DNA of 64,000 nucleotides from Clostridia bacterium. Lineage in GTDB: Bacteria > Bacillota > Clostridia > Oscillospirales > Acutalibacteraceae. Below the pieces are notes generated by a model. That model was not told where the DNA came from, did not search any database, and saw only the letters and a list, made by a program, of their open reading frames with translations. The position numbers and the translations under genes are program-made. Positions 7,026-34,219 of the stretch are shown one piece after another (position 1 is the stretch's first letter; each line of letters begins with the position of its first letter). The stretch covers positions 1 through 64,000 of the forward strand of contig JAFXCQ010000032.1 of assembly GCA_017521425.1 (NCBI GenBank), given 5' to 3'.

Positions 7026-7703
7026 ATGGTGAAGTTCTACTTTAAACCGCGCAGGCGGAAACTACATATAAAAGCAAAAAGATATATTCCTAAAAAACAA
7101 AAACACGCACTCGCCTTTAAAGTGATGTGCGTGTTTTTAGTTTTAGCTATTCTTTTTATTCTCATAGATATTGCAATAAGACCTGTTGTAAAAGAAAATG
7201 CAAAATACATAGTAAAGAATGAAGTTACTATTATGATAAATGAATCTGTTGAAAAATATCTTTCGGAAAACGAAATGGTTTATAGCGATTTGGTAAATGT
7301 GGGGGTAAATAGTGGAAATGAAGTAACATCTATAAGCACAAATACAATAAATATAAACAAGCTTAAATCGGGAATAACAAACACAATTGCAAATGAATTA
7401 AAGGATAGCAGAGGCGAAAAAATAAGAGTTTCGCTCGGTAATCTTTTTGATAGCTATATTTTAGACCATATCGGGTTGGAATTTCAGGTTAAATTAACTG
7501 ACTACGGATTTATAGAAACAGGTATTATTTCCGAATTCAAAAGCACGGGGATAAACCAGACACTTCATAGCATAAGACTGAAAATAAAAGTTGAGGTAAA
7601 TATAAATGTAGGTACTTTATACCAGACAGAAACGGTGGAAACTGTGATTTTATTAACAGAAACTGTTTTAGTGGGGAATGTGCCGAGTATGTATTTGAAT
7701 TAA
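7026..7703 (+). CDS. yunB: Sporulation protein YunB
   Basis: YunB is a sigma-E dependent membrane protein of the forespore-engulfing mother cell in Bacillus; its exact task is unclear. The protein has a basic N-terminus (FKPRRRKLHIKAKRY), one membrane helix (VMCVFLVLAILFILIDIAI) and an extracytoplasmic part with the family pattern RPVVKENAKYIV and an ETVILLTETVLVGNVP C-terminus. I start it at ATG 7026 behind GGTGAAG; an upstream TTG at 6978 has no ribosome site. Its presence suggests the host can form spores. Its stop codon is the first base group of repeat element A. Confidence 0.88.
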   Translation: MVKFYFKPRRRKLHIKAKRYIPKKQKHALAFKVMCVFLVLAILFILIDIAIRPVVKENAKYIVKNEVTIMINESVEKYLSENEMVYSDLVNVGVNSGNEVTSISTNTININKLKSGITNTIANELKDSRGEKIRVSLGNLFDSYILDHIGLEFQVKLTDYGFIETGIISEFKSTGINQTLHSIRLKIKVEVNINVGTLYQTETVETVILLTETVLVGNVPSMYLN

Positions 7704-7887
7704 AAATTAAAAATTTCGGAAGGCTTTGCCTTGATTATAATACGAATAAAAATAACTACATTCTTTCATTCAAAGTTAGTTTTTAGTACCAACTGAAAAT
7801 GATAGAATGTAGTTAATTTTATAATATTACAATGCTGACCACAGGTCCAACAATTCTTAATTTTTCATTTTTAATTTTTAATTTCTT
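7696..7887. repeat. Nested palindromic intergenic element, copy A
   Basis: Outer arms are AATTAAAAATTAAAAATTT (from 7699) and its inverse near 7858-7882. Inside are small hairpins AAGGC-TTT-GCCTT (7720-7732) and GACC-ACA-GGTC (7837-7847), and a core hairpin with stem 7754-7770 paired to 7798-7814 (16 of 17 pairs). A minor inner stem is AGTTAGT with ACCAACT. It separates the convergent genes yunB and apgM, and both stop codons lie in the arms. It shares long flanks with copy B. Confidence 0.8.
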
Positions 7888-9086
7888 ATGAACTCGTTCA
7901 TAAGCTCGTGACCGACTTCAACATAATTTCCTGTTGCTTTTGCGGTGTTTTCTGTGAATGTTTCAATTCCGTTATCTGCGTGTTTTGATTTCTGGTAAAT
8001 CATATATGGAACTGGGTCACTTGCGTGAGTCATAGTTTTAATTGGTGTAGGGTGGTCTGGTAAAATCATAATTTTATAATCGTCAAGTTTTTCGAGTTCT
8101 GGTAAAATTACACCTAAAACCTGCTCGTCAATCATTTCAAGAGATTTTACCTTGTTGTGTGGTTCGTTTCTGTGACCACATTCGTCTGGTGCTTCTAAAT
8201 GTATGTAAACAAAATCGTGAGTTTTAAGTTCGTCTATAGCACATTTTGCTTTGCCTACAAAATTAGTGTCAATGTAACCTGTTGCACCCTCTACCTCTGG
8301 AGCGGACATATTAGCGCATTTTGCAATACCCTTAAGTAAGTCAACTGCAGAAATAATAGAACCGCTTACATTATATTTCTCTTTAAAATCAGGTAAAGCA
8401 GGTTTTGTGCCTTCACCCCAGAGCCATATTGAATTAGCTGGTTTTTCACCTTTCTGGATTCTCGCTTTATTAACAGGGTGCTCCATTAAAAAGTCATAGC
8501 TTTCTTTCATCATTTTTATAAGCTCTTGTGCATTAGGTGATGCTGATAAATGTTCTTTAATAACTTTACCTGAAATATCGTGCGGAGGTGTCATTTTGCC
8601 TAAATCTAAAGTACCATTGTTCCATACAAGGCAATGTCGGTAAGCAACACCACCGTAGAATTTAAAAATGTCATTACCAAAGTGCTTTTCAACATCTTTA
8701 ATAATTTCTCTTGCTTCTTTAGTGGAAATGTCACCCGCACTATAATCTACCATTGTTTTATCTTCATAATTTTCTTCATCAGAAAGTGTAACTAAATTAC
8801 AACGGAAGATAATATCTGTATCTTTCATATCTACACCGATGCTTACTGCTTCAAGTGGTGAACGACCTGTGTAACATTCTCTTGGGTTATAACCTAAAAC
8901 ACTCATATTAGCAATATCACTACCAGGCTTTAAACCATCACCAACAGTTTTTACGATACCCATTTTACCGAATCTTGCAAGCTTATCAAGGTTTGGCTTT
9001 TTGGCTACTTCCATAGGTGTTTTGCCGTTTAAAGCATCAACAGGGTAGTCTGCCATACCATCATAAAGTACAACTACATATTTCAT
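7878..9086 (-). CDS. apgM: Cofactor-independent phosphoglycerate mutase, archaeal type
   Basis: The enzyme interconverts 3- and 2-phosphoglycerate in glycolysis without 2,3-bisphosphoglycerate; it belongs to the alkaline phosphatase fold and needs divalent metal. The N-terminus MKYVVVLYDGMADYP carries the first metal aspartate, GSDIANMSVLGYNP has the catalytic serine region, and HLEAPDECGHRNE and MILPDHPTPI are metal sites. The longer open frame reaches 9155, but ATG 9086 has AGAGG 7 bases upstream and matches the family start, giving 402 residues. It diverges from an epimerase gene. Confidence 0.92.
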   Translation of the reverse strand: MKYVVVLYDGMADYPVDALNGKTPMEVAKKPNLDKLARFGKMGIVKTVGDGLKPGSDIANMSVLGYNPRECYTGRSPLEAVSIGVDMKDTDIIFRCNLVTLSDEENYEDKTMVDYSAGDISTKEAREIIKDVEKHFGNDIFKFYGGVAYRHCLVWNNGTLDLGKMTPPHDISGKVIKEHLSASPNAQELIKMMKESYDFLMEHPVNKARIQKGEKPANSIWLWGEGTKPALPDFKEKYNVSGSIISAVDLLKGIAKCANMSAPEVEGATGYIDTNFVGKAKCAIDELKTHDFVYIHLEAPDECGHRNEPHNKVKSLEMIDEQVLGVILPELEKLDDYKIMILPDHPTPIKTMTHASDPVPYMIYQKSKHADNGIETFTENTAKATGNYVEVGHELMNEFIRN

Positions 9087-9173
9087 AAAAATACCTCTTT
9101 GCTTAAATCTCATAATTACTTTATAAATATACAACTTATTTAAACCGAATGTCAATAAAATGTGAAAAATATA

Positions 9174-9201
9174 TTGAAAATGTTTTTTATTGTTGTATAA
9201 T
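9174..9201 (+). promoter_or_regulatory. Promoter for the 9.2 kb epimerase
   Basis: TTGAAA (9174-9179), 16-base spacer and TATAAT (9196-9201), in the divergent gap 38 bases before the ATG. Confidence 0.6.
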
Positions 9202-9238
9202 TAAAGTATTAAAATAATAACTCAAAGGAGTAATTTTT

Positions 9239-10060
9239 ATGAAATTCCCAATTGCATTACAGCTCTATTCAGTAAGAGATGATATGGAAAAAGATTTTTA
9301 TGGTACACTTGAAAAAGTTAAGGCTTTAGGTTATGAGGGTGTAGAATTTGCAGGTCTTTTCGGTGAAAAGGCAGAAGATATTAAAAAGAAATTAGCAGAA
9401 CTTAATTTAACACCAATTTCTGCTCATGTTCCTTATTACGATATGCTTGAAAATCCAATTGAGGTTTTAAAGGATTATAAAGAAATCGGTTGTAAATATG
9501 TTGTTGTACCTTACCTTACAGAAGAATGTCGTCCTGGTACAGATGGTTTTACTGATACAGTTAAAGGTATAAGAAAAATTGGCGAAGCAGCAAAAGAACT
9601 CGGGCTTCAACTTCTTTACCACAACCACGATTTTGAATTTATTAAAATTGACGGTGAATATGCACTCGATATTCTTTACAATGAAGTACCAGCAGAATTC
9701 TTGCAGACAGAAATTGACACTTGCTGGGTAAATGTTGGTGGCGAAAATCCTGCAGGTTATATTGAGAAATATACAGGTAGAGCACCTGTTGTTCACCTCA
9801 AAGACTTTGTTGGCTCAAATAATGGTGGACCTCTTTATAAACTTATTGGTATTGAGGAAGAAGAAACTGAAGCAAAAGAACAGACATTTGAATTCAGACC
9901 AGTTGGTTACGGCGTTCAGGATTTCAAAGCTATTTTAAAAGCATCAGAAAAAGCAGGAGCTTCATGGGTAGTTGTTGAACAGGATAATCCATCAATGGAT
10001 AAAACTCCACTCGAGTGTGCCCAGATGAGCATTGATTTCTTGAAAGAAATCAATGTTTGA
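9239..10060 (+). CDS. Sugar phosphate isomerase/epimerase (xylose-isomerase-like TIM barrel)
   Basis: The 273-residue protein has the AP-endonuclease-2/xylose-isomerase-like barrel used by sugar and inositol isomerases, epimerases and dehydratases. Visible motifs are IALQLYSVRDDMEKD at the first strand, YHNHDFEF (metal histidine region, about 130), QTEIDTCWVNVGG, VHLKDF and VVVEQDNP, all usual metal-ligand strands. The substrate cannot be read from the sequence. AAAGGAGT precedes the ATG. It resembles the protein at 19.8 kb (same QLYSVRD start) and is probably a paralogue. Confidence 0.88.
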   Translation: MKFPIALQLYSVRDDMEKDFYGTLEKVKALGYEGVEFAGLFGEKAEDIKKKLAELNLTPISAHVPYYDMLENPIEVLKDYKEIGCKYVVVPYLTEECRPGTDGFTDTVKGIRKIGEAAKELGLQLLYHNHDFEFIKIDGEYALDILYNEVPAEFLQTEIDTCWVNVGGENPAGYIEKYTGRAPVVHLKDFVGSNNGGPLYKLIGIEEEETEAKEQTFEFRPVGYGVQDFKAILKASEKAGASWVVVEQDNPSMDKTPLECAQMSIDFLKEINV

Positions 10061-10201
10061 GGAAATAGGAATTAGGAATTAGTTTTGTGAATTTTAAATT
10101 GCCTTATCATTTTTTGTTGGTGTATAAATCAACTTTAAATGATAAGGTGATTTTATTTATCGCGATGCCCTATTTCCTAATTCCTAATTCCTATTTCCTA
10201 A
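10061..10201. repeat. Nested palindromic intergenic element, copy C
   Basis: The left arm AGGAAATAGGAATTAGGAAT (from 10062) is perfectly inverted at 10170-10199. The core hairpin has stem 10097-10112 with 10137-10152 (14 of 16 pairs) and an inner GTTG/CAAC pair (10116-10119, 10130-10133). It starts directly after the TGA of the epimerase. No mobile gene lies inside. Confidence 0.8.
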
Positions 10202-10279
10202 AATTTTTCGCTTTCTCGAAAAATTTGACACACCAATTCCACATCGGTATAATAAATTATAATCAAAGGGGGAGAGTTG

Positions 10280-10942
10280 ATGTATAAAATTCTCGTTGCA
10301 GATGATGAAATTAAGATAAGAAATACCATAAAAGATTACCTTACTGCAAAAGGTTTGAAGGTTACTACTGCAAGTGACGGAGAAGATGCAGTAGAAAAAA
10401 CAGAAGAAACTGAATTTGATTTAATCATACTTGATGTTATGATGCCAAAAAAAGATGGTCTTAAAGCATGTGAAGAAATAAGAAAATATAGCAATGTTCC
10501 GATTCTTTTTCTTTCAGCATTAGGTGAAGAAACCGATTATTTAAAAGGCTTTTCTTATGGTGGTGATGATTACATAGTAAAACCATTCCCACTTTCAGTT
10601 TTGCATCAGAAGTGCCTTTCTATGATTGCTATGTCAAAAGGAAACCAGAAGCGTGACGAAATTTCTTTAAATGGAATTTTAATAGATTTAGCAAAAAGAA
10701 AGGTTTTTGTTGAAGCACAGGAAATTGTACTCACAAATAAAGATTATGAATTATTACGATATTTAATGGAAAATAAAAATATCGTTTTAGACCGAGATAA
10801 AATTCTTAACAGGATATGGGGTTGGGAATATGAAGGTACATCTCGTGTAGTTGATACTCACATTAAAAGAATCCGCAAAGCATTAGGCGAAAAGGCTGGG
10901 TGTATTAAGACGGTTGTTAATGTGGGGTATACTTTTGAATAA
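10280..10942 (+). CDS. OmpR-family response regulator
   Basis: The receiver domain (residues 1-115) has the acidic pair DDE at 8-10, the phosphoacceptor Asp52 in LIILDVMMPKKDG and the lysine in VKPFP. The C-terminal winged helix (about 128-220) has LTNKDYELLRYLMENK, RDKILNRIWG and VDTHIKRIRKALG. I start at ATG 10280, with GGGGGAG 6-7 bases upstream; the TTG one codon earlier is less likely. It is followed by its kinase after 17 bases, and then by a membrane protein. Confidence 0.93.
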   Translation: MYKILVADDEIKIRNTIKDYLTAKGLKVTTASDGEDAVEKTEETEFDLIILDVMMPKKDGLKACEEIRKYSNVPILFLSALGEETDYLKGFSYGGDDYIVKPFPLSVLHQKCLSMIAMSKGNQKRDEISLNGILIDLAKRKVFVEAQEIVLTNKDYELLRYLMENKNIVLDRDKILNRIWGWEYEGTSRVVDTHIKRIRKALGEKAGCIKTVVNVGYTFE

Positions 10943-10959
10943 AATTAAAGGGGATTTTT

Positions 10960-12609
10960 ATGCAAAATAGATTAACTGATAAAAAGGAAAAACGTTTTTA
11001 TTTTCGCATTAAGCGTAGAATTTTCATTGTGGAAATTTTAGTGCTTCTTTTGTCAGTTGTTATATTCATTCCGACTGTAACCCGTGAGTTCTCTACCGAA
11101 GTCGGCTATTATATGGATAACAAACGAATAGGTTTTTGTATTTCGGGCGATGAAAATATTACAAAAGATAATTTTATTGCAACATATAGTGACGGTTTTT
11201 TCGGCTTTCCTTTTGCTATGGCTTTGTATGATTCAAGTGGTAAACTTTTACACACTAATAGTACGATTGTGTCATTTAACACCGATGGTGAAGAAAAGTA
11301 TTGTTACATAGAAGAATATCTTAATGAAGAACAGAAAACAGAATTTAACAGTATGAAAGAAAAAGGGTATCTGTGCGATATTATTGTGGTGGAGAGTTTA
11401 ACATACTATGAGCAAAATGGTGTTGTAGTACCTGTTGAAATGGTAGTTTCTTTTTATGATTACAAAAAAGATGCTGCGTCCGAAAGTAAAAAATATAAGT
11501 TTTTAGATTATAGCGGTGAAACAAATACTGTAACAATAGAAGATTATGAGAAAAACAATCTGGGTATTTTAAAAACAAGTTTCTACTACAGCGCACCTGA
11601 TAATGATTACAAGATGTATAACGAGTGTCTTAGGCAGGTGTCCAATATAAATTTCGGTGATTATAGTTGTGACTATAAATTAAGCGGATTTAATGTTGAA
11701 AATTTACCTGTAGCGAACTATGTTATGGGTACACCGGATAATCAGAACTTTCTTTTAAAGGTAGTAGAAATTGACGGAGAAAACTACATTTTAGTTTTTA
11801 AAAGCAGGTTTAACAGATTTGAAAGAGCATTTCATGATTCAAGTTGTTTTACAATAACATTAGCTGTTATTTTAGTGTTTAATGTATTGATGCTTGTTTT
11901 ACCTGATAAATTCTTGGAGAAATATCGTGAGCGACAAAGCTTTGAAGAGATAAAATCAAGCTTTACCTCTGCTATGGCACACGAAATGAAAACACCTATT
12001 GCAATTATACAGAATCAATGTGAATGTATCTTAGAAAATATTGCTCCCGAAAATAACAACGAATATGTTTCATCGATTTATGACGAAGCAACTAAAATGA
12101 ATAAATTGGTAGGGGATATGCTCCAGTATAACAGAATTTCTCAAATCAGTATTCTTGATTTGGAAAAAACTGATTTAGGGGAACTTGTGTTAAGTGAAAC
12201 TGAAAAATATAAAAAGCATTTTGAAATTCATAGAAAGCAGGTTTCTGTTGATATTGAAACAAATAAAAAGGTTAAATGTGATAAAACCTTGATTGCACTT
12301 GTAATAGATAACTTCTTGTCTAATGCAGTAAAGCACACAGAAGATGGTGGCGAAATCAGGATTACTGTAAAAGATGGAGTAGAGGGTGTGAAGGTGCTTG
12401 TCTTTAATTCAGACTCACAAATTCCCGAAGCCGACAAGAATAAAATCTGGTCTGTGCTTTATAAAACCGATAAGTCAAGAACAGAGAGATATAAGTCAAG
12501 CGGTGTAGGTCTTGCAGTATCAGCTAAAATTCTTGATTTACACAAGGCAGATTATGGTTGCACCAATGTGGAAAATGGTGTGAAGTTTTATTTTAATATC
12601 AAAAAATAA
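10960..12609 (+). CDS. Sensor histidine kinase
   Basis: This 549-residue membrane kinase partners the response regulator just upstream. There are membrane helices at about 23-43 and 293-313 with a roughly 250-residue extracytoplasmic sensor region of unknown fold between them. The HisKA motif SAMAHEMKTPIA has the phosphoacceptor His341. The ATP-binding domain has VIDNFLSNAVKHTEDGG (N box) and SSGVGLAVSAKI (G2 box). The signal sensed is not evident. Its sensor region is larger than in most simple kinases. Confidence 0.92.
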   Translation: MQNRLTDKKEKRFYFRIKRRIFIVEILVLLLSVVIFIPTVTREFSTEVGYYMDNKRIGFCISGDENITKDNFIATYSDGFFGFPFAMALYDSSGKLLHTNSTIVSFNTDGEEKYCYIEEYLNEEQKTEFNSMKEKGYLCDIIVVESLTYYEQNGVVVPVEMVVSFYDYKKDAASESKKYKFLDYSGETNTVTIEDYEKNNLGILKTSFYYSAPDNDYKMYNECLRQVSNINFGDYSCDYKLSGFNVENLPVANYVMGTPDNQNFLLKVVEIDGENYILVFKSRFNRFERAFHDSSCFTITLAVILVFNVLMLVLPDKFLEKYRERQSFEEIKSSFTSAMAHEMKTPIAIIQNQCECILENIAPENNNEYVSSIYDEATKMNKLVGDMLQYNRISQISILDLEKTDLGELVLSETEKYKKHFEIHRKQVSVDIETNKKVKCDKTLIALVIDNFLSNAVKHTEDGGEIRITVKDGVEGVKVLVFNSDSQIPEADKNKIWSVLYKTDKSRTERYKSSGVGLAVSAKILDLHKADYGCTNVENGVKFYFNIKK

Positions 12610-12641
12610 AGCTTCGATTTTATGAGAAAAGGGAGAAAAAT

Positions 12642-13466
12642 ATGAAAGGTAAATTGATAGCAGTTTCTGTTTTTACTGTAATAGCATCAATTGTGTTTTA
12701 TTGTTCGATTTTGTTTCAGCCAATGTACTTTTTCGAGTTTGAGGCTTTGCCGATACTTTTGTTTTCAGCAGAAGCTTTATTGCTTGTTTCAATAATTCTT
12801 ATTATTTCTGTAGTTCTTATTTCAAGAGGAACAGTTGAGGGCGGTAACATAAAAAAGAAAATTATTGCATTATGTCTTTTCATAGTTGTGGGTTGTTCAT
12901 TGTTAGTAGGTTATAATGTTTTAGCTTTTTATGATGGCTACACACCTGAAAGCTATACAGAAAATAACAGAGAATATACACAAACGCTGTTTCCGTATCA
13001 TAATATAACAGGTGAGGAATACGAAAGCTTTGATATTTCTGCATCATATATAACCGGTACGAAATATTTTTGGTTGGAGTCTTATGGTGTATCAGTTTAC
13101 GGGATGCCTCAAGTTTATGATGTAAGATATTTTGAAAGTATAAGCCCGTTTATGAATTTTAAATTCAGGTTAGAAACAGAAAACCCTCTCGTGAAGCATT
13201 GGGCAGAATTAGAATGTGTGGCACAAGGCGAAACAATGGAAATAAACGGTAAAAGTGTAACTTTTTTCAAAACGGACGATGATTACGGTGTTTTGGTTAA
13301 AGATTTTAATAAAGCTACCTATGCAACGCTTACAAATGCTTATTATACAGATATTACCAAAGAAGAGTTTGCAAGTGAGGTTTTAAAGCAACATGAGGAA
13401 TTAAAAAAACTTTCAAAAGATAACAGTTTTTTCGATGTGCCGATTTTAGAACGCTTCGAGTATTAA
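12642..13466 (+). CDS. Membrane protein of unknown function in a two-component operon
   Basis: I do not recognise this 274-residue protein. It has three likely membrane helices (residues about 5-27, 34-60 and 72-95) and an extracytoplasmic domain of some 175 residues rich in aromatics (HNITGEEYESFDISASY, YFWLESYGVSVYG). It lies 32 bases after the histidine kinase behind GGGAGAAA, so it is probably in the same operon and may be a signalling partner or the target. That role is inference. Confidence 0.75.
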   Translation: MKGKLIAVSVFTVIASIVFYCSILFQPMYFFEFEALPILLFSAEALLLVSIILIISVVLISRGTVEGGNIKKKIIALCLFIVVGCSLLVGYNVLAFYDGYTPESYTENNREYTQTLFPYHNITGEEYESFDISASYITGTKYFWLESYGVSVYGMPQVYDVRYFESISPFMNFKFRLETENPLVKHWAELECVAQGETMEINGKSVTFFKTDDDYGVLVKDFNKATYATLTNAYYTDITKEEFASEVLKQHEELKKLSKDNSFFDVPILERFEY

Positions 13467-13530
13467 ATGCTGAAGGCTCAGTACTAATTCCTATTTCCTT
13501 GCCCCCCTAACCACTAACAAACTGCACAAT
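13467..13530. repeat. Remnant of a palindromic-element arm
   Basis: After the TAA come a small CTGAAGGCTCAG hairpin, then TACTAATTCCTATTTCC, which matches the right arm of copies C and D, and CTAACCACTAAC repeats. No core hairpin or left arm is visible, so this looks like a decayed copy. Confidence 0.45.
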
Positions 13531-13560
13531 AAATTTTCTCAAAAAACTACACATTGTTCA

Positions 13561-13590
13561 TTGACAAATATTGCAAGTTGGGTGTATAAT
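13561..13590 (+). promoter_or_regulatory. Promoter for the secreted metallophosphoesterase
   Basis: Perfect TTGACA (13561-13566), 18-base spacer, perfect TATAAT (13585-13590). The gene starts 43 bases further on, behind CGGAGG. Confidence 0.75.
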
Positions 13591-13632
13591 ATGGTGTAAT
13601 TAAAATAGTGTTATAATATTCGGAGGTTAGTT

Positions 13633-15168: not shown

Positions 15169-15375
15169 TTCGGAATTATAAGAATGCAGAGTTCAGAATG
15201 CAGAATTTTGCGAACTTGATTATAAAACGAATAAAAATTAATGCATCTTATCATTTATAGTTGATATTAAAACCAACTTAAAATGATAAGATGCATTTTC
15301 TTTTATAATATTACAATGCCAACGCAGTTCCGAAATTTTTAATTCTCAATTTTCAATTTTAAATTTTCGCGTAGC
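15169..15375. repeat. Nested palindromic intergenic element, copy B
   Basis: The core hairpin is perfect: 15240-15256 pairs with 15281-15297 (17 bp), with an inner AGTTG/CAACT stem (15259-15263, 15274-15278). Flanks CTTGATTATAAAACGAATAA (15215-15234) and TTTATAATATTACAATGCC (15301-15319) nearly match copy A. Arms are made of AATGCAGA and AATTTTCAATT type repeats. It separates the phosphoesterase from the convergent mannosidase and abuts the first stop codon directly. Confidence 0.8.
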
Positions 15376-15378
15376 GAA

Positions 15379-18549: not shown

Positions 18550-18638
18550 ATCAAAAATCCTTTCAAAATCATCTTTTCTTAATATACAATAATTATAAAA
18601 AAAATTCAATATTTAGTGCTAAAAAAGAAGAAATACTA

Positions 18639-18666
18639 TTGAAATATATTGTAGATGTAGTATAAT
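18639..18666 (+). promoter_or_regulatory. Promoter of the oxidoreductase-epimerase cluster
   Basis: TTGAAA (18639-18644), 16-base spacer, TATAAT (18661-18666), in the divergent gap with the GH38 gene. The next gene has AGGGGG before its ATG. Confidence 0.55.
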
Positions 18667-18706
18667 AAACAAGTATATATAATCAATATATAGGGGGTAA
18701 TACCTT

Positions 18707-21511: not shown

Positions 21512-21526
21512 AACACTTCGTGTTTT
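21510..21526 (+). terminator. Short hairpin on the stop codon
   Basis: AAAACAC-TTC-GTGTTTT, a 7 bp stem that starts inside the TAA of the epimerase gene and ends in TTTT. It may stop or slow transcription. It is weak by stem length and lies just before element F. Confidence 0.45.
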
Positions 21527-21681
21527 AATTAAGAATTAAGAATGAAAAATGAAAAATTTCGGGACCTGCGGTCGGCATTATAGATTTTTTAAAATGTGAA
21601 TGAAACGAGTAGTTTTCTGGATGGTTTTATAATCGGCTTTGCCCCTCAATTCTTAATTCTTAATTTTTAATTTTTAATTCA
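21527..21681. repeat. Nested palindromic intergenic element, copy F (inverted, altered core)
   Basis: The left arm AATTAAGAATTAAGAATG and right arm ATTCTTAATTCTTAATTTTT are inverted copies. Inside are GGGACC-TGC-GGTC followed by GGCATTATAG, and TTATAATCGGC-TTT-GCC. These correspond to the right and left inner flanks of copy A read on the other strand. The central part is not a clean hairpin, so the core has been replaced or has decayed. Confidence 0.6.
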
Positions 21682-21699
21682 AGAAATGGGATAGGAAAA

Positions 21700-22749: not shown

Positions 22750-22776
22750 AATTTATTTTGATTGGAGTTTTTTGCT

Positions 22777-24027: not shown

Positions 24028-24028
24028 A

Positions 24029-24862: not shown

Positions 24863-24888
24863 CAAAAAGTGAAGAAAAAGCATTTTTA

Positions 24889-24917
24889 TTGAAAAAATAT
24901 CGGAACTATGATATTAT
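24889..24917 (+). promoter_or_regulatory. Promoter for the pseudopilin gene
   Basis: TTGAAA (24889-24894), 17-base spacer, TATTAT (24912-24917), just after nfo. The pseudopilin ATG follows 20 bases on. Confidence 0.5.
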
Positions 24918-24937
24918 GAAAATAGAGGTGAAAAATT

Positions 24938-25507: not shown

Positions 25508-25527
25508 TAGAAAGAAGATATTAAGCT

Positions 25528-26670: not shown

Positions 26671-26673
26671 TTT

Positions 26674-27225
26674 ATGGAATTTATAGAAGAAATAAAAATC
26701 CAACTTAAAAAGTCTGCCGAAGAATTAGTTGAAAAAGCAAATCTTAAATGTGGCGATATAGTCGTTGTTGGTTGCTCTTCAAGCGAAATTTTAGGCGACA
26801 ATATGGGAACTAATTCGAGTCCCGAATTAGGCGAACAAGTATTTTTAGCACTCAATGAAGTGTTTAAGGCAAAGGATATTTTTGTTGCGGCACAATGTTG
26901 TGAGCATTTAAACAGGGCAATAATTGTTGAAAAAGAAGCGGCAAAAAATCTTGAGTGGGTTAATGTAATTCCTGTACCAAAAGCAGGTGGTTCATTTGCA
27001 ACCGCTGCTTATAAACACTTAAAAAATCCAGTTGCAGTAGAAGGCATTAAAGCAGACGCAGGACTTGATATTGGTGGAGTTTTAATAGGAATGCACTTAA
27101 AAAATGTTGCAGTACCTTTAAAGCTTTCAGAAAAAAGTATTGGTAACGCGTTGCTCCTTGCAGCACGAACAAGACCGAAGTTTATAGGTGGAGTCAGGGC
27201 GAACTACAACGAAAACTTAATATAA
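26674..27225 (+). CDS. TIGR01440 family protein (YwlG type)
   Basis: The 183-residue protein matches the UPF0340/TIGR01440 family: VVGCSSSEILGDNMGTNSS near residues 30-48, AAQCCEHLNRAIIVE (about 70-84) and VPKAGGSFATAAY. The family is widespread in Firmicutes and has no firmly established function to my knowledge. It is cytosolic with no signal. It starts 3 bases after the LCP stop with no clear ribosome site, so it probably depends on translational coupling, and it ends in a strong terminator. Confidence 0.88.
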   Translation: MEFIEEIKIQLKKSAEELVEKANLKCGDIVVVGCSSSEILGDNMGTNSSPELGEQVFLALNEVFKAKDIFVAAQCCEHLNRAIIVEKEAAKNLEWVNVIPVPKAGGSFATAAYKHLKNPVAVEGIKADAGLDIGGVLIGMHLKNVAVPLKLSEKSIGNALLLAARTRPKFIGGVRANYNENLI

Positions 27226-27262
27226 AAAAATCAGTTGCAGCAAAAACTGCAACTGATTTTTT
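27226..27262. terminator. Bidirectional rho-independent terminator
   Basis: AAAAAATCAGTTGCAG and CTGCAACTGATTTTTT form a 16 bp stem around a CAAAAA loop. It serves the TIGR01440 gene and the convergent oxidoreductase. Confidence 0.92.
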
Positions 27263-27270
27263 TATATTGT

Positions 27271-28419: not shown

Positions 28420-28700
28420 AAATTTCCTCCTGTATCTGTAAGTACAGATATTAAATTAACATAATAAGATTACCACAGAAAGCAAATTCTTTCAATAGAA
28501 AAATGTGTTTTTGAATAGTGGTAAAATGCACAAATACACACTATATATTGTGTGATATTTAACTAAAAGTGAATTTTACGTGAAAAAATGGTGCAAAAAA
28601 AGTGTATTGTTAATAATTTGTTCACATTTTCGCAACAAATTAGTAGTAACCAATGGTTACTATATAGTTGCCAATACGAGTACGCAAGAGGTAACACTCT
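28420..28700. other. Intergenic stretch with no confident gene
   Basis: AT-rich spacer between the divergent oxidoreductase and GH110-like genes. It holds small dyads (TAACCAATGGTTA at about 28656-28670). A 62-codon open frame covers it (28580-28768) but has no ribosome site or family match and runs through the terminator that follows, so I do not call it. Confidence 0.5.
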
Positions 28701-28707
28701 TCTATTC

Positions 28708-28745
28708 AAGAAAAACCCGTCGCAATGTGCGACGGGTTTTTCTTT
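28708..28745. terminator. Orphan terminator, possible end of a small RNA or leader
   Basis: AAAAACCCGTCGC-AATGT-GCGACGGGTTTTT, a 13 bp stem with T-tracts on both strands. No coding gene ends here: the oxidoreductase at its left reads away and the GH110-like gene at its right starts about 160 bases later. It may end an unannotated small RNA or attenuate a leader. Confidence 0.8.
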
Positions 28746-28904
28746 TGTGTAAATACACTCACTTTTGAAAATTTAATTTAATTTTAATCTTTTATATATT
28801 GCAATTTATAATGTTTTATTATATTATTTATAGGCAATTGAAATTAAAATTTATTCATATAATAATATAGATGTATATAACAAAAAATACAGTAGGTGAA
28901 AATT

Positions 28905-30554
28905 TTGGTAATTTATCCGGATTCTTTCAGCATAAAGCCGGACTCTGAAGTTACGGTTGCTTTTAGTAACCTTTTAAATACAGCCTCTGAAAACGCAAAA
29001 CCTAAAAGCCTTTTGTTAGAAAAAGGTAATTATGTGTTTTTGAGCAAATATGCAAATGAACGAGAGCTTTACATTTCAAATACTATTGGAGATAAGGAGT
29101 ATTCTGAAACAGATAAAAAGCATACTCATAAAATTGCACTTGATTTAAAAGGTATAAACGATTTAGAAATAGATTTTAATAATTCAACATTTATTTTTGA
29201 CGGTATTATGACAAATATCGTTATTGAAAACTGTGTTAATGTTACACTTAAAAATCTTAACATTGAAACAGTACAACCTAATGTTCACAAGATAACTATA
29301 ATGCAGACGTCACCATTTTATGTTACATTTAAAATTGATGAGTCAAGCAATTACAAAGAAGAAGATGGCGAATATTTCTGGTATGGAACAGATTATAAAT
29401 TAGGCTTTACAGAGCTTAAAAATTCCGGTAGCTGGACTCCGACCGCAAAGGCTTCAAACTATAATCACGTAAAAAGAAATGGTTCGCATCCGTTTTTTGG
29501 TGTTTCTACAATAAAAGAAGTTTCTCCGAGAGTGTTTAAAGCGAGGTATTTAATACCAAAGGATTTTGAAGCTGGGCAGGTTTTTTATGTATTCCCGAAA
29601 GCAAGAAAAAATGTTGGTATTTTAGTTGATGGTAGTAAAAATATTAAACTCGAAAATATAACACAACGCTTTAATTATTCTTTGGGGTTAGTCGCACAGA
29701 ATTCTGAAGATATAACACTTGAAAATTCAGACTTTTCTCCGCGCGAAGCCGCAGAAGTTGATTTTTCATCACTTGCAGATTTCGTTGTATGTTCAATGTG
29801 TCGAGGTAATGTGAAAATTAAGAATTGCAATTTTAGTTCATCGGGTGATGACGGTTGCAACATTCACGGTATCTTCTTTAAGGTGGTTGACAGTACGGAT
29901 GATACAATTGTAGTCCGCTATGGTCATAGAAGAACTTTTGGTTTTAATCCGTTAAGGGTAAACGATACAATTACATTTATTGACCCGAAAACTCTTACAG
30001 AGCACGGAAAAGCAAAAATTCTACAATCTGAAATGCTCGACAGATACCATATAAAATTAAAGCTTTCAACAAGAAATAATCCTGTGGGCGCAGTAATAGA
30101 AGATATAACTGCGTGTCCTGATGTTGAATTTTGTGAAAATACACTTAATAGAGTTGCTTCAAGAGGTTTGCTTGTTACAACCCGCGGTAAAGTTTTGATT
30201 GAAAATAATAAATTTTTAAATACAGGTAAAAGTGGTATTTATGTTTCTGATGATGCTCTTACCTGGTTTGAAAGCGGTGCTGTAAAATCTATGATGATAA
30301 GAGGCAACGCGTTTATGAATTGCGAAGAAAGTGCAATTCTTATAGCACCTGAAAACAGACGATTTGTAGGTTTTGTTCACGAGAATATTTATATTGAAAA
30401 TAATCTTTTTATGTTAAATTCAATTCCTGCACTCAATGTGAGTTCAACAAAAAATATTCTTATGAAAGCAAATGTATATAAAGGTAAACCGTCTTTTGGT
30501 AAATACATTATTGCAAAAAATGTAGAAGGTGTAACTTACGATATACCTAACTAA
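28905..30554 (+). CDS. GH110-like right-handed beta-helix protein (alpha-galactosidase-type)
   Basis: GH110 enzymes cleave alpha-1,3-linked galactose by an inverting mechanism. ADFVVCSMCRGNVKIKNCNF and GDDGCNIHG (about residues 288-322) match the GH110 segment that usually reads H-F-x-x-C-R-G ... D-D-A-x-N-x-H-G. The rest is parallel beta-helix with N-rich turns (IENCVNVTLKNLNIET, IENNKFLNTGKSGIYVSDD). No signal peptide is present, so it would act in the cytosol. AGGTGA lies 5 bases before TTG 28905; GTG 28896 in frame is a possible start without a ribosome site. The family call is moderate, since the match is by motif. Confidence 0.75.
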   Translation: MVIYPDSFSIKPDSEVTVAFSNLLNTASENAKPKSLLLEKGNYVFLSKYANERELYISNTIGDKEYSETDKKHTHKIALDLKGINDLEIDFNNSTFIFDGIMTNIVIENCVNVTLKNLNIETVQPNVHKITIMQTSPFYVTFKIDESSNYKEEDGEYFWYGTDYKLGFTELKNSGSWTPTAKASNYNHVKRNGSHPFFGVSTIKEVSPRVFKARYLIPKDFEAGQVFYVFPKARKNVGILVDGSKNIKLENITQRFNYSLGLVAQNSEDITLENSDFSPREAAEVDFSSLADFVVCSMCRGNVKIKNCNFSSSGDDGCNIHGIFFKVVDSTDDTIVVRYGHRRTFGFNPLRVNDTITFIDPKTLTEHGKAKILQSEMLDRYHIKLKLSTRNNPVGAVIEDITACPDVEFCENTLNRVASRGLLVTTRGKVLIENNKFLNTGKSGIYVSDDALTWFESGAVKSMMIRGNAFMNCEESAILIAPENRRFVGFVHENIYIENNLFMLNSIPALNVSSTKNILMKANVYKGKPSFGKYIIAKNVEGVTYDIPN

Positions 30555-30556
30555 AA

Positions 30557-30592
30557 CAAAATCGGCAGACTGTAAAAATCTGCCGATTTTAT
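30557..30592. terminator. Terminator after the GH110-like gene
   Basis: AAAATCGGCAGA and TCTGCCGATTTT form a 12 bp stem. It lies between the GH110-like gene and the convergent DUF1540 gene and can serve both. Confidence 0.88.
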
Positions 30593-30607
30593 TGTTTGTT
30601 GATTTAC

Positions 30608-30769
30608 TTATTTTACTTCAAATGATTGACAGCAAGTGTTGTCACTTGTTTTTGCACAAGAACTGCAAGCAGTTACTTCAATAGCATTTTTTGTGCAGTA
30701 GTTAGCACTTTGTGCGTGGTATTTGCAAGTATCAACTGTGCAACCGATAGAATTGTTTTTCTGTTCCAT
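30608..30769 (-). CDS. DUF1540 small cysteine-rich protein
   Basis: This 53-residue gene is easily missed. The ATG (complement of 30767-30769) has an ideal AAGGAGG 9 bases upstream. The protein MEQKNNSIGCTVDTC continues with KYHAQSANYC, ACSSCAK and a CCQSFEV end, matching the DUF1540 pattern of spaced cysteines, probably a metal-binding fold. Its role is unknown; the family is common in Clostridia. It ends against the terminator shared with the GH110-like gene. Confidence 0.88.
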   Translation of the reverse strand: MEQKNNSIGCTVDTCKYHAQSANYCTKNAIEVTACSSCAKTSDNTCCQSFEVK

Positions 30770-30862
30770 AAAAAGTTACCTCCTTAATTTTTAGAGTGTT
30801 TAACACTCTTACAAGTTTATTATGTACAGAAAATATAAGAATAAACGAAAGGTTTTTTATTT

Positions 30863-31363
30863 ATGAAAAAAGAAGATGTTATATTAACCTGTTATTCACT
30901 TTTAAGAAAAGAAACACCTTTAAGTTACGATTGTGGCAAAATCTGTAATGGCAAATGCTGTAAAGGTGACGAAAATACAGGAATGATTCTTTTTCCTGGT
31001 GAAGAAGAATTTTTAGATGAAAATATTAAAATAAAAGAAACTCAAAGCGGTGTTAAAATAGCAGTTTGTAATGGTAACTGTGACAGAAACAAAAGACCAT
31101 TGTCTTGCAGAATTTATCCGTTGTTTCCGCTTATGTCAGAAAATGGAAAAGTTAAAACTATTATAGATATAAGAGCAGATTGTCCTTTGAAAAATGGTGA
31201 TTATAAATTCAATAGGACATTTATAAGAAAAGTAAAAAGGGTAGGTAAATACTTATTATTAAATGAAGAAACCAAAAGATTTTATACGGAATTATCAGAT
31301 GAAATAAATGAACAGATTGAGCTTTTAGAAAAACTTCAAAAAAATTTTCTAAAAAACTGTTGA
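30863..31363 (+). CDS. Cysteine-cluster protein (YkgJ/UPF0153-like)
   Basis: The 166-residue protein has a cysteine arrangement like the YkgJ/UPF0153 family, thought to bind iron or zinc: CGKICNGKCCKG (about 24-35), CNGNC (73-77), RPLSCRIYPLFP and RADCP. No signal peptide is seen. The family's function is not established. It is upstream of the Fur-family regulator; its TGA lies within the -35 box of that promoter. The call rests on the cysteine pattern only. Confidence 0.72.
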   Translation: MKKEDVILTCYSLLRKETPLSYDCGKICNGKCCKGDENTGMILFPGEEEFLDENIKIKETQSGVKIAVCNGNCDRNKRPLSCRIYPLFPLMSENGKVKTIIDIRADCPLKNGDYKFNRTFIRKVKRVGKYLLLNEETKRFYTELSDEINEQIELLEKLQKNFLKNC

Positions 31364-31388
31364 CAAATTTTAAAAAATAGTTTATAGT
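31360..31388 (+). promoter_or_regulatory. Promoter of the fur-like/rubrerythrin genes
   Basis: TTGACA (31360-31365), 17-base spacer, TATAGT (31383-31388). The stop codon of the preceding gene overlaps the -35 box. Confidence 0.75.
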
Positions 31389-31394
31389 AATAAC

Positions 31395-31407
31395 AGTAAT
31401 CATTACT
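31395..31407 (+). promoter_or_regulatory. Putative Fur/PerR-type operator
   Basis: AGTAAT-C-ATTACT is a perfect 6-1-6 inverted repeat just after the -10 box. Its shape resembles the 7-1-7 Per box (TTATAATNATTATAA), which suggests self-repression by the regulator it precedes. This is inference by position and shape. Confidence 0.5.
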
Positions 31408-31432
31408 ACTTATAAAAAGCGGGGGTGAGTGA

Positions 31433-31801
31433 ATGAGAAAATCAAGGCAAAGAGATGCAATTCTTGATTATATTAAATGTTCAACTGAACATCCTACTGC
31501 CGATATGGTATATGAGTCAGTAAAACAGTCAATACCAAATATAAGTCTTGGTACAGTTTACAGAAACTTAAATCAATTAGTAGATGAAGGTTTTATTACG
31601 GTGGTTGAAACGAGTGATAAAAAAGTTCACTATGAAGGTAACTTAAACGAACACATTCACTTGCTTTGTAAAGAATGTTGTAATATTACCGATGTATTTA
31701 GAAAAACCGAAGTTCCTGATGTATATGAAGAAACAGGTTTTAAAATACAGTCACAAAAAACAGTTTATTATGGCATTTGTAAAAAATGCTTAAATACATA
31801 G
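31433..31801 (+). CDS. Fur-family transcriptional regulator (PerR-like)
   Basis: Fur-family proteins use a metal ion to control repression. The 122-residue protein has a winged helix (TADMVYESVKQ, SLGTVYRNLNQLVDEGFI, residues 20-57), a histidine-rich metal region (NEHIHLLCKEC, about 70-82) and a second CKKC at the C-terminus, so the structural Cys4 zinc site is complete. The next gene, reverse rubrerythrin, suggests peroxide sensing as in clostridial PerR. GGGGGTGAG lies upstream. Regulator identity (PerR versus Fur) is inferred from context. Confidence 0.88.
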   Translation: MRKSRQRDAILDYIKCSTEHPTADMVYESVKQSIPNISLGTVYRNLNQLVDEGFITVVETSDKKVHYEGNLNEHIHLLCKECCNITDVFRKTEVPDVYEETGFKIQSQKTVYYGICKKCLNT

Positions 31802-31845
31802 GTGAAAACCTATAATATATTATTTACATGAAGGAGTTTTTGATT

Positions 31846-32391
31846 ATGAAAAAATGGAAATGTTTAGTTTGCGGTCAGATTGTTGAAAGTGAAACAGCAC
31901 CAGAGGCTTGCCCACTTTGCAAAGCACCAGCAGAAAAATTCGTAGAAGTAAAAGATGAAGAAATGACTTGGGCTGCAGAGCACGTTTTAGGCGTTGCTAA
32001 AGGCGTAAGTGAAGAAATTCTTGAAGGTCTTCGTGCAAACTTCAATGGCGAATGCACAGAAGTTGGTATGTACCTTGCAATGGCAAGAGTTGCTCACAGA
32101 GAAGGCTACCCTGAAATCGGTCTTTACTGGGAAAAAGCTGCTTACGAAGAAGCAGAACATGCAGCAAAATTTGCTGAACTCTTAGGTGAACTCGTTACAG
32201 ATTCAACAAAGAAAAATCTCGAAATGAGAGTTGAAGCAGAAAACGGTGCAACTCTTGGTAAATTCGAACTTGCTAAAATGGCTAAAGAACAAAATCTTGA
32301 CGCTATCCATGACACAGTTCACGAAATGGCTCGTGACGAAGCAAGACACGGTAAAGCATTCGAAGGTCTCTTAAAGAGATATTTTGGATAA
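31846..32391 (+). CDS. Reverse rubrerythrin (NADH peroxidase component)
   Basis: Reverse rubrerythrins reduce hydrogen peroxide in anaerobes, taking electrons through an N-terminal rubredoxin domain. Here the rubredoxin part is first ([12 protein letters not shown] ... CPLCKAP, residues 3-27) and the ferritin-like four-helix diiron part follows ([36 protein letters not shown] with Glu and His ligands). This order is the opposite of classic rubrerythrin. ATG 31846 is preceded by AAGGAG; an upstream in-frame ATG at 31828 is less likely. It lies 45 bases after the Fur-like gene and ends in a terminator. Confidence 0.93.
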
Positions 32392-32416
32392 TAAATTAAA
32401 TTTTCGTTAGCAATTT

Positions 32417-32448
32417 AAAAGCCGATAGGTGTTCCTATCGGCTTTTTT
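32417..32448. terminator. Terminator after reverse rubrerythrin
   Basis: AAAAGCCGATAGG-TGTT-CCTATCGGCTTTTTT, 12-13 bp stem with a T-run. Confidence 0.92.
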
Positions 32449-32469
32449 AGGAAGAAGGAGTGGAAAAAT

Positions 32470-32970
32470 ATGGATAATACTGCATTATTTAATTTATCTT
32501 ATGGAGTTTATGTTATTACAACATGGGGTGAGGGTAGAGCAACCGGTTGCACAGCTAACTCTGCTATGCAGATAACTTCAACCCCTGCAACAATTGCTGT
32601 TTCAATAAATCACGATAACTATACAAATAAATGTATTAAAGATACCGGCATTTTTGCAGTGAATATTTTAGGGGAGAATGTTGACCCTGTTATAATAGGT
32701 TCTTTCGGTTTCAGAAGCGGTAAAGATGTTGATAAATTTGAAGGCATTGAACCACTCGTAAAGGAATTTACACCTGTGTTACCACAAGCAATTTCTTACA
32801 TAACCTGTAAAGTTATTAACACTATGGAAACAGATACCCATACAATCTTTTTAGGTCAGGTAACAGATGCGGGGAATCTTTCAAAAGATATCCCAATGAC
32901 ATATAGTTATTATCATAAGGTTGTAAAGGGTACTACACCCAAAAATGCACCGACATATAAAGGTGACTAA
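32470..32970 (+). CDS. Flavin reductase-like FMN-binding protein
   Basis: The 166-residue protein matches the split-barrel flavin reductase domain found alone or fused to rubredoxin: LSYGVYVITTWGEGRATGCT at the N-terminus, TPATIAVSINHDNYTNKCI and FAVNILGE (about 28-70), and HTIFLGQVTDAG. It probably binds FMN and passes electrons, and here it follows the oxygen-defence genes. GAAGGAGTGG precedes the ATG. It may be cotranscribed after readthrough of the terminator, or have its own start. Confidence 0.88.
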   Translation: MDNTALFNLSYGVYVITTWGEGRATGCTANSAMQITSTPATIAVSINHDNYTNKCIKDTGIFAVNILGENVDPVIIGSFGFRSGKDVDKFEGIEPLVKEFTPVLPQAISYITCKVINTMETDTHTIFLGQVTDAGNLSKDIPMTYSYYHKVVKGTTPKNAPTYKGD

Positions 32971-33018
32971 GTTTGCCTTGCGGCAAGTGAAGTTGTTTCA
33001 TAGTGAAGTTTTGTTTTC
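32971..33018. repeat. Mini-hairpin string, copy 1
   Basis: Directly after the TAA: TTGCC-TTGC-GGCAA (32973-32986), linker GTGAAGTT, then a weaker TTTCATAGTGAAGTTTTG continuation. The same TAAGTTTGCCTnnnGGCAA series lies inverted at 51501-51523, so it is a repeat family. Confidence 0.6.
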
Positions 33019-33044
33019 AAATTTATAAAAATTATCATTACCAC

Positions 33045-33073
33045 TTGCACATTTATATAAATAGTGTTAGAAT
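33045..33073 (+). promoter_or_regulatory. Promoter for the 33.1 kb gene
   Basis: TTGCAC (33045-33050), 17-base spacer, TAGAAT (33068-33073), 39 bases before the ATG. Confidence 0.5.
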
Positions 33074-33112
33074 ATTGTTAATTATTCAACATATTGTTCA
33101 GAGGTGTGAAAA

Positions 33113-33469
33113 ATGGCAAATAACAGAAAAGATTTAAGAACAGAACTTCGTACAATGCGTTTTGAATTCGATTTGTTGCAACGAATTCCTTGTAGCGAAG
33201 AAGAAAACAGAGCGTTCAAACGTTATGTTGAAGATGGTCAGGATTTACCGCAAGGTGTTTTCCGTTACAGAAATTCTGACGGTAAAAATTCTGATTCTGA
33301 ATTTTATACAGTTTATGAACCGGATTTAACCGAAAGAGAAATCAACGAATTTCTTACAATGAAGAAATTACAGATTTTAAAATCAATAAAAGGAGCAATT
33401 GCGTTATTCGGTTCTGTAATTTCAGGATTTCTTCTTGTATTTCTCGTGATTTTATTGATGGGAAGATAA
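33113..33469 (+). CDS. Tail-anchored small protein of unknown function
   Basis: I do not recognise this 118-residue protein. Its N-terminal 90 residues are charged and soluble (RKDLRTELRTMRFEFDLLQ, EPDLTEREINEF), and residues 94-116 are one hydrophobic helix (AIALFGSVISGFLLVFLVIL), giving a C-terminal membrane anchor. AGAGGTG precedes the ATG. It has its own promoter and is followed by repeat element E. Confidence 0.7.
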   Translation: MANNRKDLRTELRTMRFEFDLLQRIPCSEEENRAFKRYVEDGQDLPQGVFRYRNSDGKNSDSEFYTVYEPDLTEREINEFLTMKKLQILKSIKGAIALFGSVISGFLLVFLVILLMGR

Positions 33470-33481
33470 TAAATACAAATT

Positions 33482-33650
33482 ATAATTCGGAATTCGTAAA
33501 TGCGTAATTCGGAATTACAGAAACTGCGTTGACATTATAAAAATGCACAATTCACAATGCATAATTTAATAATGTCAAATGAAAAATTTACTCCCACTAT
33601 GGTAGGGGCAGACCTGTGGTCGCCCGCAGTAGTGGGAGCGTTTTTTTATA
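33482..33650. repeat. Palindromic intergenic element, copy E, with a two-stem hairpin
   Basis: AATTCGGAATT tandem arms (33487-33526) lead to CTGCGTTGACATTATAAAA, similar to the flanks in A and B. The hairpin is different: CTCCCACTA (33591-33599) pairs with TAGTGGGAG (33630-33638), and inside it GGGC-A-GACC-TGT-GGTC-GCCC (33606-33625) pairs again. A T-run follows (33641-33647), so it may also terminate transcription. The gap to 33782 holds only AT-rich sequence. Confidence 0.6.
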
Positions 33651-33782
33651 ATAATATACCAATCGAGTGTAATAAATTAAATTATCGCGAAGTCTTTCGG
33701 GATTTTTAATTTCTGTTTCCCTAAATATGAATAATCATCCTTTTCTTTGAGACAATAGTAAAAAAACGGAAAAGGTGATTTT

Positions 33783-34085
33783 ATGAGTATAGCTTTAAAT
33801 TTATATTACAAGGGCAAGAACGGTGCCGCAAAAATGTTTATGGAAGAAATGGAAAAAAGCGGTTTAGCAGACAAGATAAGGAATAAAGAGGATAACGAAA
33901 GTTACGAATATTTTTATTCAGTAAGAGATAAAGAAACGATTTTACTTGTTGACCGTTGGAAAAGTGGTGACGCTTTGCATTTTCACCATAATTCAGATGA
34001 TATGAAAAAAATAGCAGAACTTAAAGATAAATATGAACTCGAACTCAAAGTTGAGAGGTATGTTACTGAAGGAATTAGGAATTAG
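33783..34085 (+). CDS. Antibiotic biosynthesis monooxygenase (ABM) domain protein
   Basis: The 100-residue protein has the ABM ferredoxin-like fold pattern: an N-terminal strand (SIALNLYYKGKNG), a helix (AKMFMEEMEKSGL), YFYSVRDKETILLVDRWKS and HFHHNSDDMKKI. Such proteins include quinol monooxygenases and small stress proteins; its substrate is unknown. AAAAGGTGATTTT precedes the ATG. Its last residues (EGIRN) and its stop TAG are encoded by the left arm of repeat D, so the natural C-terminus may have been altered. Confidence 0.75.
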   Translation: MSIALNLYYKGKNGAAKMFMEEMEKSGLADKIRNKEDNESYEYFYSVRDKETILLVDRWKSGDALHFHHNSDDMKKIAELKDKYELELKVERYVTEGIRN

Positions 34086-34219
34086 GAACTAGGAATTAGG
34101 AAATAGGAAATAGAAAATTCTTATAAAAAATGCATTCTATCATTTGAAGTTTATTGTAAACTAAATATGATAGAATGCATATAGTTTATTCAATTCTAAT
34201 TCCTAGTTCCTAATTCCTA
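34074..34219. repeat. Nested palindromic intergenic element, copy D
   Basis: TAGGAATTAGGAACTAGG arms (34077-34110) are inverted at 34195-34219. The core hairpin is perfect for 14 bp (34130-34143 with 34167-34180) with inner AGTTTA/TAAACT (34148-34153, 34157-34162). It separates two convergent genes, and both of their stop codons (TAG) lie within its arms. Confidence 0.8.

Follow-up and report, generated by a model that had tools for sequence, protein, structure and literature searches.

Intervening sequences (IVSs) have been described in 16S and 23S ribosomal RNA (rRNA) genes, at positions that form a small loop in rRNA without an IVS (PMC4990558). That source describes for Coxiella an IVS with tandem heptameric repeats, in variable number, before its open reading frame (ORF), and with a 28-bp terminal stem; the stem of an IVS lets RNase III cut the element from the transcript (PMC4990558). 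There, a Xanthomonas relative of the encoded protein, which belongs to the S23p family (PF05635), is given as a homopentamer, and the function of the family as not known (PMC4990558). The present analysis deals with four intergenic palindromes, copies A to D, found in a stretch of 64,000 nucleotides from a Clostridia bacterium (contig JAFXCQ010000032.1, positions 1 to 64,000; hereafter the window). Each is made of two inverted arrays of tandem heptamers, the arms, around a covarying hairpin core. This core is called R1, as is the covariance model built from it. Sequence comparisons suggest that the R1 copies are probably clade-restricted, non-autonomous palindromic mobile elements, related to the PF05635/IVS elements and now used as bidirectional terminators; we infer both the mobility and the termination.

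The likeness to the 23S rRNA IVSs that carry an S23p/PF05635 ORF (in Leptospira, Coxiella and others) concerns the protein family, the terminal inverted repeats able to form a stem and the heptameric units (PMC4990558). In contrast, R1 elements lie between protein genes and not in rRNA, have no ORF, occur in many copies per genome and possess an additional core hairpin as well as mini-hairpins. Because of their position outside rRNA they are not classified here as IVSs; rather, they look like IVSs outside rRNA. A second comparison is with miniature inverted-repeat transposable elements (MITEs). Like these, R1 copies are short, ORF-less, numerous and intergenic, and have ends in common with a longer coding element. 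Unlike in MITEs, neither a target-site duplication nor a classical transposase was seen, and the ends are variable heptamer arrays instead of a fixed repeat. Heptamer repeats are also found in cyanobacteria, as short tandemly repeated repetitive sequences (STRRs), reportedly studied by Mazel, and Elhai is said to have dealt with small dispersed repeats of cyanobacteria; to our knowledge, heptamer repeats have no accepted origin. The TAACTGA repeats of Beggiatoaceae and cyanobacteria are likewise 7-nt tandem arrays in intergenic DNA; they have been described as direct repeats, with one inverted set (PMC4679880), in contrast to the inverted arms of the R1 copies. The main text on the TAACTGA repeats makes no mention of 'four helix' or 'S23' (PMC4679880). 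Finally, repetitive extragenic palindromes (REPs) of the GTAG/CGTC type and REPINs (REP doublets forming hairpins), with their REP-associated tyrosine transposases (RAYTs), resemble R1 as extragenic palindromes with complementary stem variation (PMC3733652). Unlike in REPs, no tag tetranucleotide was seen in R1, and the Y1-transposase gene of the window's genome is flanked by another repeat. In the openly accessible literature, no report was found that joins four-helix-bundle or S23 proteins to heptamer arrays outside rRNA.

Arms shared with PF05635 genes

The armed elements needed for the comparison are the four copies and an element E, which has arms without an R1 core (types 1 and 2 refer to the arms, see below):

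7698..7884, no strand assigned: copy A, type 1, between convergent genes; heptamer arm 7698-7715, R1 core 7749-7819, heptamer arm 7852-7884; mini-hairpins (by eye), a GC one at about 7720-7732 and GACCACAGGTC at about 7837-7847
10060..10201, no strand assigned: copy B, type 2, between tandem genes, directly past the upstream stop codon; arm 10060-10082, R1 core 10090-10159, arm 10169-10201
15181..15368, no strand assigned: copy C, between convergent genes; AATGCAG-type arm 15181-15206, R1 core 15234-15303, arm 15334-15368; mini-hairpin AACGCAGTT at about 15321-15329
34070..34232, no strand assigned: copy D, type 2, between convergent genes; arm 34070-34118, R1 core 34123-34187, arm 34196-34232
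21527..21680, no strand assigned: element E, armed, without R1 core; arm 21527-21558, mini-hairpins GGGACCTGCGGTCGGC at about 21561-21576 and CGGCTTTGCCCC at about 21634-21645, arm 21648-21680

In the window's own genome (G000; the other R1-rich genomes of the genus are G001, G002, G012, G016 and G021), an element at C7:106034-106613 has these same arms and mini-hairpins around an ORF of 120 aa. The ORF codes for an intervening-sequence protein of 23S rRNA, which matches PF05635 (E 2.8e-27), TIGR02436 ('four helix bundle protein') and PDB 2rld (E 1.3e-38). Its ratio of nonsynonymous to synonymous substitution rates (dN/dS) between G000 and G012 is 0.09, indicating purifying selection. The left end of this element aligns over 58 columns with the left ends of element E and of the R1 copies L007 and L008, and over 52 columns with that of L016; its right end aligns with element E over 51 columns. 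Because both ends align, element E looks like an ORF-less version of the PF05635 element, and, like a MITE, it shares both ends with a coding element from its own genome. Concerning type-2 arms, the left arm of another PF05635 locus of G000 (L253) aligns over 28 columns with the left arm of the R1 copy L030. PF05635 matches occur in G000 on C2, C14, C7 (106 kb), C23 and C13. No PF05635 match was found in the window, and copies A to D do not code for this protein. No RNA family was matched either when the window was scanned against Rfam at the gathering score.

A single script looked for arms around PF05635 genes: it took the 250 nt on either side of the ORF and sought heptamers forming an inverted-complementary pair across it. 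Such a pair was present at 22 of 25 plasmid loci, some of which are near-duplicates (three Nostoc loci at one site, three Planktothrix loci at another), at 18 of 29 loci of the phylum sample and at 13 of 30 loci of the genus. Counting arrays of whatever kind, 24/25, 18/29 and 14/30 loci, respectively, had them on both sides. Among 119 control small ORFs of G000, arrays flanked two on both sides; an inverted pair was seen at one, the PF05635 ORF itself. The plasmid set was made of one locus per record, and the records belong to Cyanobacteriota, Bacteroidota, Spirochaetota, Bacillota and Chloroflexota, each of these phyla being represented among the loci that passed. In the phylum sample PF05635 was found in 34 of 199 genomes, and one locus was taken from each of 29; the genus set consists of 30 loci out of a longer list. 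In most cases, the heptamer sequence varies from one PF05635 locus to the next.

This association between arms and PF05635 is the strongest new result. PF05635 proteins occur in several phyla, and the tie, if true, would offer a testable explanation both for a protein family without a known function and for the heptamer repeats. A broader proposal, to which we give slightly less than even credence, is that mobile elements with inverted heptamer arrays at their ends form a pan-bacterial class, of which PF05635 genes are the mark. The rRNA IVSs would then be only the rRNA-inserted members of the class, the heptamer repeats scattered in cyanobacteria and elsewhere would be its arms and footprints, and ORF-less versions would have become the standard terminators of convergent genes in the clade of the window.

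It may also be imagined that the arms are microsatellites grown by slippage beside hairpins, their inverted symmetry arising by template switching, and that no mobile element is involved. In agreement with this idea, array units and numbers vary between species at fixed sites: the arms of site A differ between G000, G001 and G002 (those of G012 and G021 are alike), and site B holds in G001 a near-identical element with other numbers of heptamers. However, the idea appears improbable, since inverted arrays are tied to one gene family in several phyla, as compared with the 119 control ORFs, since arm lengths cluster near 32 nt, and since non-repetitive mini-hairpins are common to the elements. 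Concerning these lengths, 23 of 36 strong arrays of G000 measure 30-35 nt, 32 nt being the commonest value.

The arms are period-7 tandem arrays, as detected by Tandem Repeats Finder, those of one side being inverted relative to those of the other. Over 382.6 kb of G000, 54 period-7 arrays exceeded the score threshold, as compared with 3, 4 and 8 in three mononucleotide block shuffles, which were used without the low-complexity filter applied to the real set. By eye, two main arm types can be distinguished. In type 1, a GC-rich mini-hairpin (GGGACCTGCGGTCGGC, AAGGCTTCGCCTT or AACTGCGTT, for instance) and TTATAA come after an AATT-NNN array; in type 2, a YAGRRAY-type array lies directly on the core. 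Copy A is of type 1, B and D are of type 2, and C combines an AATGCAG left arm with a type-1 right side. The two arms of an element resemble each other more than they resemble those of other elements (13 elements; 5 of 5000 permutations as good). This likeness partly reflects the existence of two types, and the remainder asks for joint insertion or for correction of one arm by the other. As for the rest of the genus, 7-10 kb stretches of the R1-poor genomes G006, G007, G008, G009 and G014 contained no strong array and that of G020 contained two. Stretches of 12 to 17 kb from G001, G002 and G012 contained 7, 11 and 9, and a 6-kb stretch of G016 contained none.

A sequence-only reading of the window had listed the four copies, each with a long stem that has a smaller one inside it and with AT-rich repeats as outer arms, and all four were found where it had placed them. 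It had left out two armed elements of the same stretch, element E and an element F. The arms that it described as short AT-rich tandem repeats do exist, but their period of seven, the mini-hairpins and the link to PF05635 had escaped it. The near-identical inner flanks, attributed to A and B, belong in fact to A and C; similarly, the stem pair GCATC/GATGC is that of copy C and not of B, which reads GCC.../GGTG. Element F is as follows:

33484..33565, no strand assigned: element F, armed, without R1 core; two heptamer arrays, 33484-33516 of AATTCGG type and 33542-33565 of AATGCAC type, with a short spacer
about 33602-33625, no strand assigned: REP-like palindrome adjoining element F, GTAGGGGCAGACC...GGTCGCCC

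From its appearance to the eye, we take this last palindrome to be a GTAG REP-like sequence. Heptamer arrays (TTACTAA, ACTTGCA) are also present at 62055-62105 of the window, with no R1 core and no obvious partner arm.

Other observations concern PF05635 genes and their surroundings. Arms were not detected at L240, L243, L244, L245, L246, L255 and L258; several of these loci adjoin, by eye, arrays in which small hairpins of many kinds alternate with a shared motif (GTGATATT or GATGAAATC, for instance); such hairpins form another family of variable palindromes. On plasmids of Nostoc TCL26-01 and Anabaena cylindrica (L268, L270), four-helix-bundle genes lie between cas2 and cas1 with heptamer arrays on both sides. 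On a Pseudanabaena plasmid (L288) such a gene adjoins cas1, the flanking arrays being not complementary by the threshold used. Other plasmid four-helix-bundle genes adjoin restriction, DISARM- or BREX-type genes. The locus L267, which lies on a Dolichospermum plasmid, matched that same plasmid at 20 separate places, possibly repeats of heptamer arrays.

The R1 hairpin and its position at gene ends

The cores of copies A to D were compared with dinucleotide shuffles on both strands, which gave folding z values of -5.1 to -9.4; none of 200 shuffles folded as well as the core in any of the eight folds. The sequence-only reading had noted that stem bases change together, and this was borne out in 25 paralogues aligned with MAFFT: 86.6% of the cells are paired and the covariation score is 0.263, against 0.140 ± 0.013 for shuffled controls and at most 0.100 for slid partners. 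In this set, the measures of both-side changes (22/500) and of further pair types (49/500) are weaker. A second alignment, of 44 model matches (22 sites, each on both strands), which leans to the R1 model, gave 90.2% pairing and a covariation score of 0.264. There, two of five measures, the same two, are no better than shuffles (double-side changes 303/500; further pair types 363/500). No conserved tetranucleotide, GTAG or CGTC, was seen by eye at the hairpin foot in the paralogue alignment.

An A-rich tract precedes the hairpin and a T-rich tract follows it. Taken together, the 12-nt stretches at the upstream feet of 22 sampled cores contain 169 A and 60 T, and those at the downstream feet contain 172 T and 45 A, with the reservation that the R1 model contains the flanks and that its matches therefore lean to A- and T-rich ones. 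This arrangement is like that of a bidirectional intrinsic terminator, and R1 shows what is expected of a predicted terminator, a stable hairpin followed by a T tract, although its stems are AT-rich. Of the 22 cores, 14 lie between convergent ORFs, eight between tandem ones and none between divergent ones. Since ORFs were called mechanically, the pair counts are approximate. Convergent pairs represent 34 of 337 consecutive ORF pairs, and R1 is in excess at them (Fisher 1.3e-10). The position of the cores supports a putative terminator role.

Ordinary terminators, sought in a simple way, were called less often in convergent gaps that have R1 (3 of 13) than in those that lack it (14 of 21; p = 0.03). 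The core at C13:110207 is overlapped by an ORF call and is therefore outside the 13 gaps. At site C, by eye, the element is present in G000 and G001, a plain terminator in G012 and G021, both in G002, and two terminator-like hairpins in G016. The situation is reversed in another gap of the window, where G000 has a plain terminator and G001, G012 and G002 an R1 element:

27219..27268, no strand assigned: ordinary bidirectional terminator between convergent genes; 22-bp perfect inverted repeat with A- and T-tracts

With such a placement, with A/T tracts and with ordinary terminators replaced by R1 elements, it might be thought that R1 is only a class of structured terminator or 3' untranslated region RNA, its hairpins having arisen or persisted as bidirectional terminators and being immobile, and the arms being incidental. 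We consider this unlikely. Termination needs neither arms nor mini-hairpins, and yet an ORF-carrying element has them too; moreover, one element lies inside another, layers are stacked, and copies are present or absent among close relatives, as described below.

Distribution, nesting and possible movement

The R1 covariance model matched all of 150 scored candidates of G000, out of 5670 first-look candidates, which corresponds to at least 82 distinct sites on 22 contigs. In a search of 60 genomes (E <= 0.01, strict filters), only six had many R1 copies, all of one genus: G000, G001, G002, G012 and G021 with at least 84 matches each, and G016 with 38. Elsewhere there were two matches in G007 and one each in G005 and G048, the other genomes searched having none at this threshold. 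In a pattern scan, the matches listed were mainly from metagenome-assembled genomes (MAGs) of Oscillospiraceae or Clostridia (SIG595, SIG596, SIG561 and RGIG2997, the last from goat rectum going by the record title). Also among the matches listed were isolated ones in unrelated bacteria (an Acinetobacter plasmid, Kordia, Companilactobacillus and others), which we attributed to chance. Carriage by viruses was considered and rejected, the core pattern being found in 0 viral contigs.

Sites were compared between the R1-rich genomes. Site A is filled in G000, G001, G002, G012 and G021 and unfilled in G016. G000, G012 and G002 have element E; in its place there is just a 32-nt array in G001 and different sequence in G021. 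At the PF05635 site, G000 and G012 have the gene element, G002 has an armed ORF-less element, G001 and G016 have a short gap, and no match was obtained from G021. Thus, presence or absence between species, as for MITEs, is seen at sites C and E, at the 27.2-kb gap and at the PF05635 site.

Nesting was observed by eye. At C7:147.6-147.9 kb, the halves of a core stand on either side of another, armed hairpin. Half a core at C7:214.9-215.0 kb is adjoined by a GTAG-type REP-like sequence. On one side of site A in G012, three successive layers of array and mini-hairpin follow each other, the second and third beginning in TTATAATT; the right side is not a full mirror. Such stacked layers may explain the nested palindromes noticed in the sequence-only reading. 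That reading had left the choice between non-autonomous mobile elements and a regulatory RNA class, and both halves gain support. The first is favored by site differences between species, by the nested element and by the ends in common with an ORF-carrying element; the second by the 14 of 22 cores at convergent genes and by the A- and T-tract flanks. The search with a covariance model that it had suggested yielded many further copies, with covariation, in the same genome and in close relatives, and the comparison of orthologous gaps showed copies present in some species and absent in others. On the whole, that first observation is partly confirmed.

Palindromic, intergenic and nested elements could also be of REP/RAYT or IS200/IS605 type, with a Y1 transposase moving them, and G000 and G012 each have one ORF that exceeds the Y1_Tnp cut-off. 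However, the gene of G000 (L200, C32:1340-1675) is RAYT-like and flanked, by eye, by its own, different repeat (TAGAACCGTCCCCTG / CATAGAACCGTCCCCTG), Y1_Tnp was not matched in the R1-rich genomes G001 and G021 (82% and 81% complete), and the stem foot carries no conserved GTAG/CGTC tag. A Y1 transposase was therefore rejected as mobilizer, and this alternative seems improbable. Retro-movement of the kind of diversity-generating retroelements (DGR-like) was also rejected. RVT_1 was not found in G000, G001, G012, G021 and G016, and only G002 has one among the six R1-rich genomes, which apart from G000 are 80-83% complete; the lack of a match in G000 makes a self-encoded reverse transcriptase unlikely.

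Several observations, in addition to the flank bias of the R1 model, weigh against descent from PF05635 elements, against mobility or against the terminator role. Neither a target-site duplication nor an exact junction was seen, the sites showing replacement or diverged gaps, and filled and empty sites differ also by loss of sequence. A split methyltransferase gene of Nostoc plasmids was considered as a clean empty site with duplication and rejected, because the site shows a deletion, about 328 bp being missing relative to the intact gene. A Dolichospermum/Chroococcidiopsis pair was rejected as too diverged. There are no near-identical recent copies, the best paralogue of copy C having 83% identity. 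The right ends of R1 elements match the PF05635 element at best over 28 columns of arm (L027), and arrays are detectable on both sides of only 13 of the 22 sampled cores. PF05635, present in 20/22 genomes of the genus and 0/14 control genomes, is also found in 14 of 16 genus genomes without many R1 copies. The arm test was failed by 17/30 genus loci (one of these loci ended 14 bp past the ORF) and 11/29 phylum loci, its controls all come from one genome, and its plasmid set includes the near-duplicates mentioned above. Finally, three convergent gaps hold both R1 and a terminator call, although at least one of these calls may be the R1 hairpin itself.

If the R1 copies are indeed mobile relatives of PF05635 elements, the following scheme may be envisaged. 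The ends, inverted heptamer arrays often of about 32 nt and many with an inner GC-rich mini-hairpin, would be those of a PF05635-coding element, and in R1 copies the covarying hairpin would take the place of the gene between them. Elements would have moved by means of the PF05635 protein, or of whatever moves PF05635 elements, the four-helix bundle possibly acting on the hairpin ends or on the single-stranded DNA or RNA of the element. As targets to enter or replace, they would prefer hairpin or terminator DNA and one another, which would give nested palindromes. The R1 core would now bring about intrinsic termination in both directions where genes converge, and also at 3' ends. By analogy with IVSs, excision by RNase III may render elements harmless in operons. 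In the clade of the window, terminators would then have been replaced by domesticated mobile palindromes, a selfish element supplying a basic regulatory part.

A last observation concerns heptamer arrays outside the window. At C7:235150-236620 of G000 (locus L214) there is an array resembling clustered regularly interspaced short palindromic repeats (CRISPR), with the repeat GTTTCAATCCCCTATAAGGGGTAAGGTAG, and several of its units have heptamer arrays, of CTGACAA and AATTGAA types, in the spacer position.

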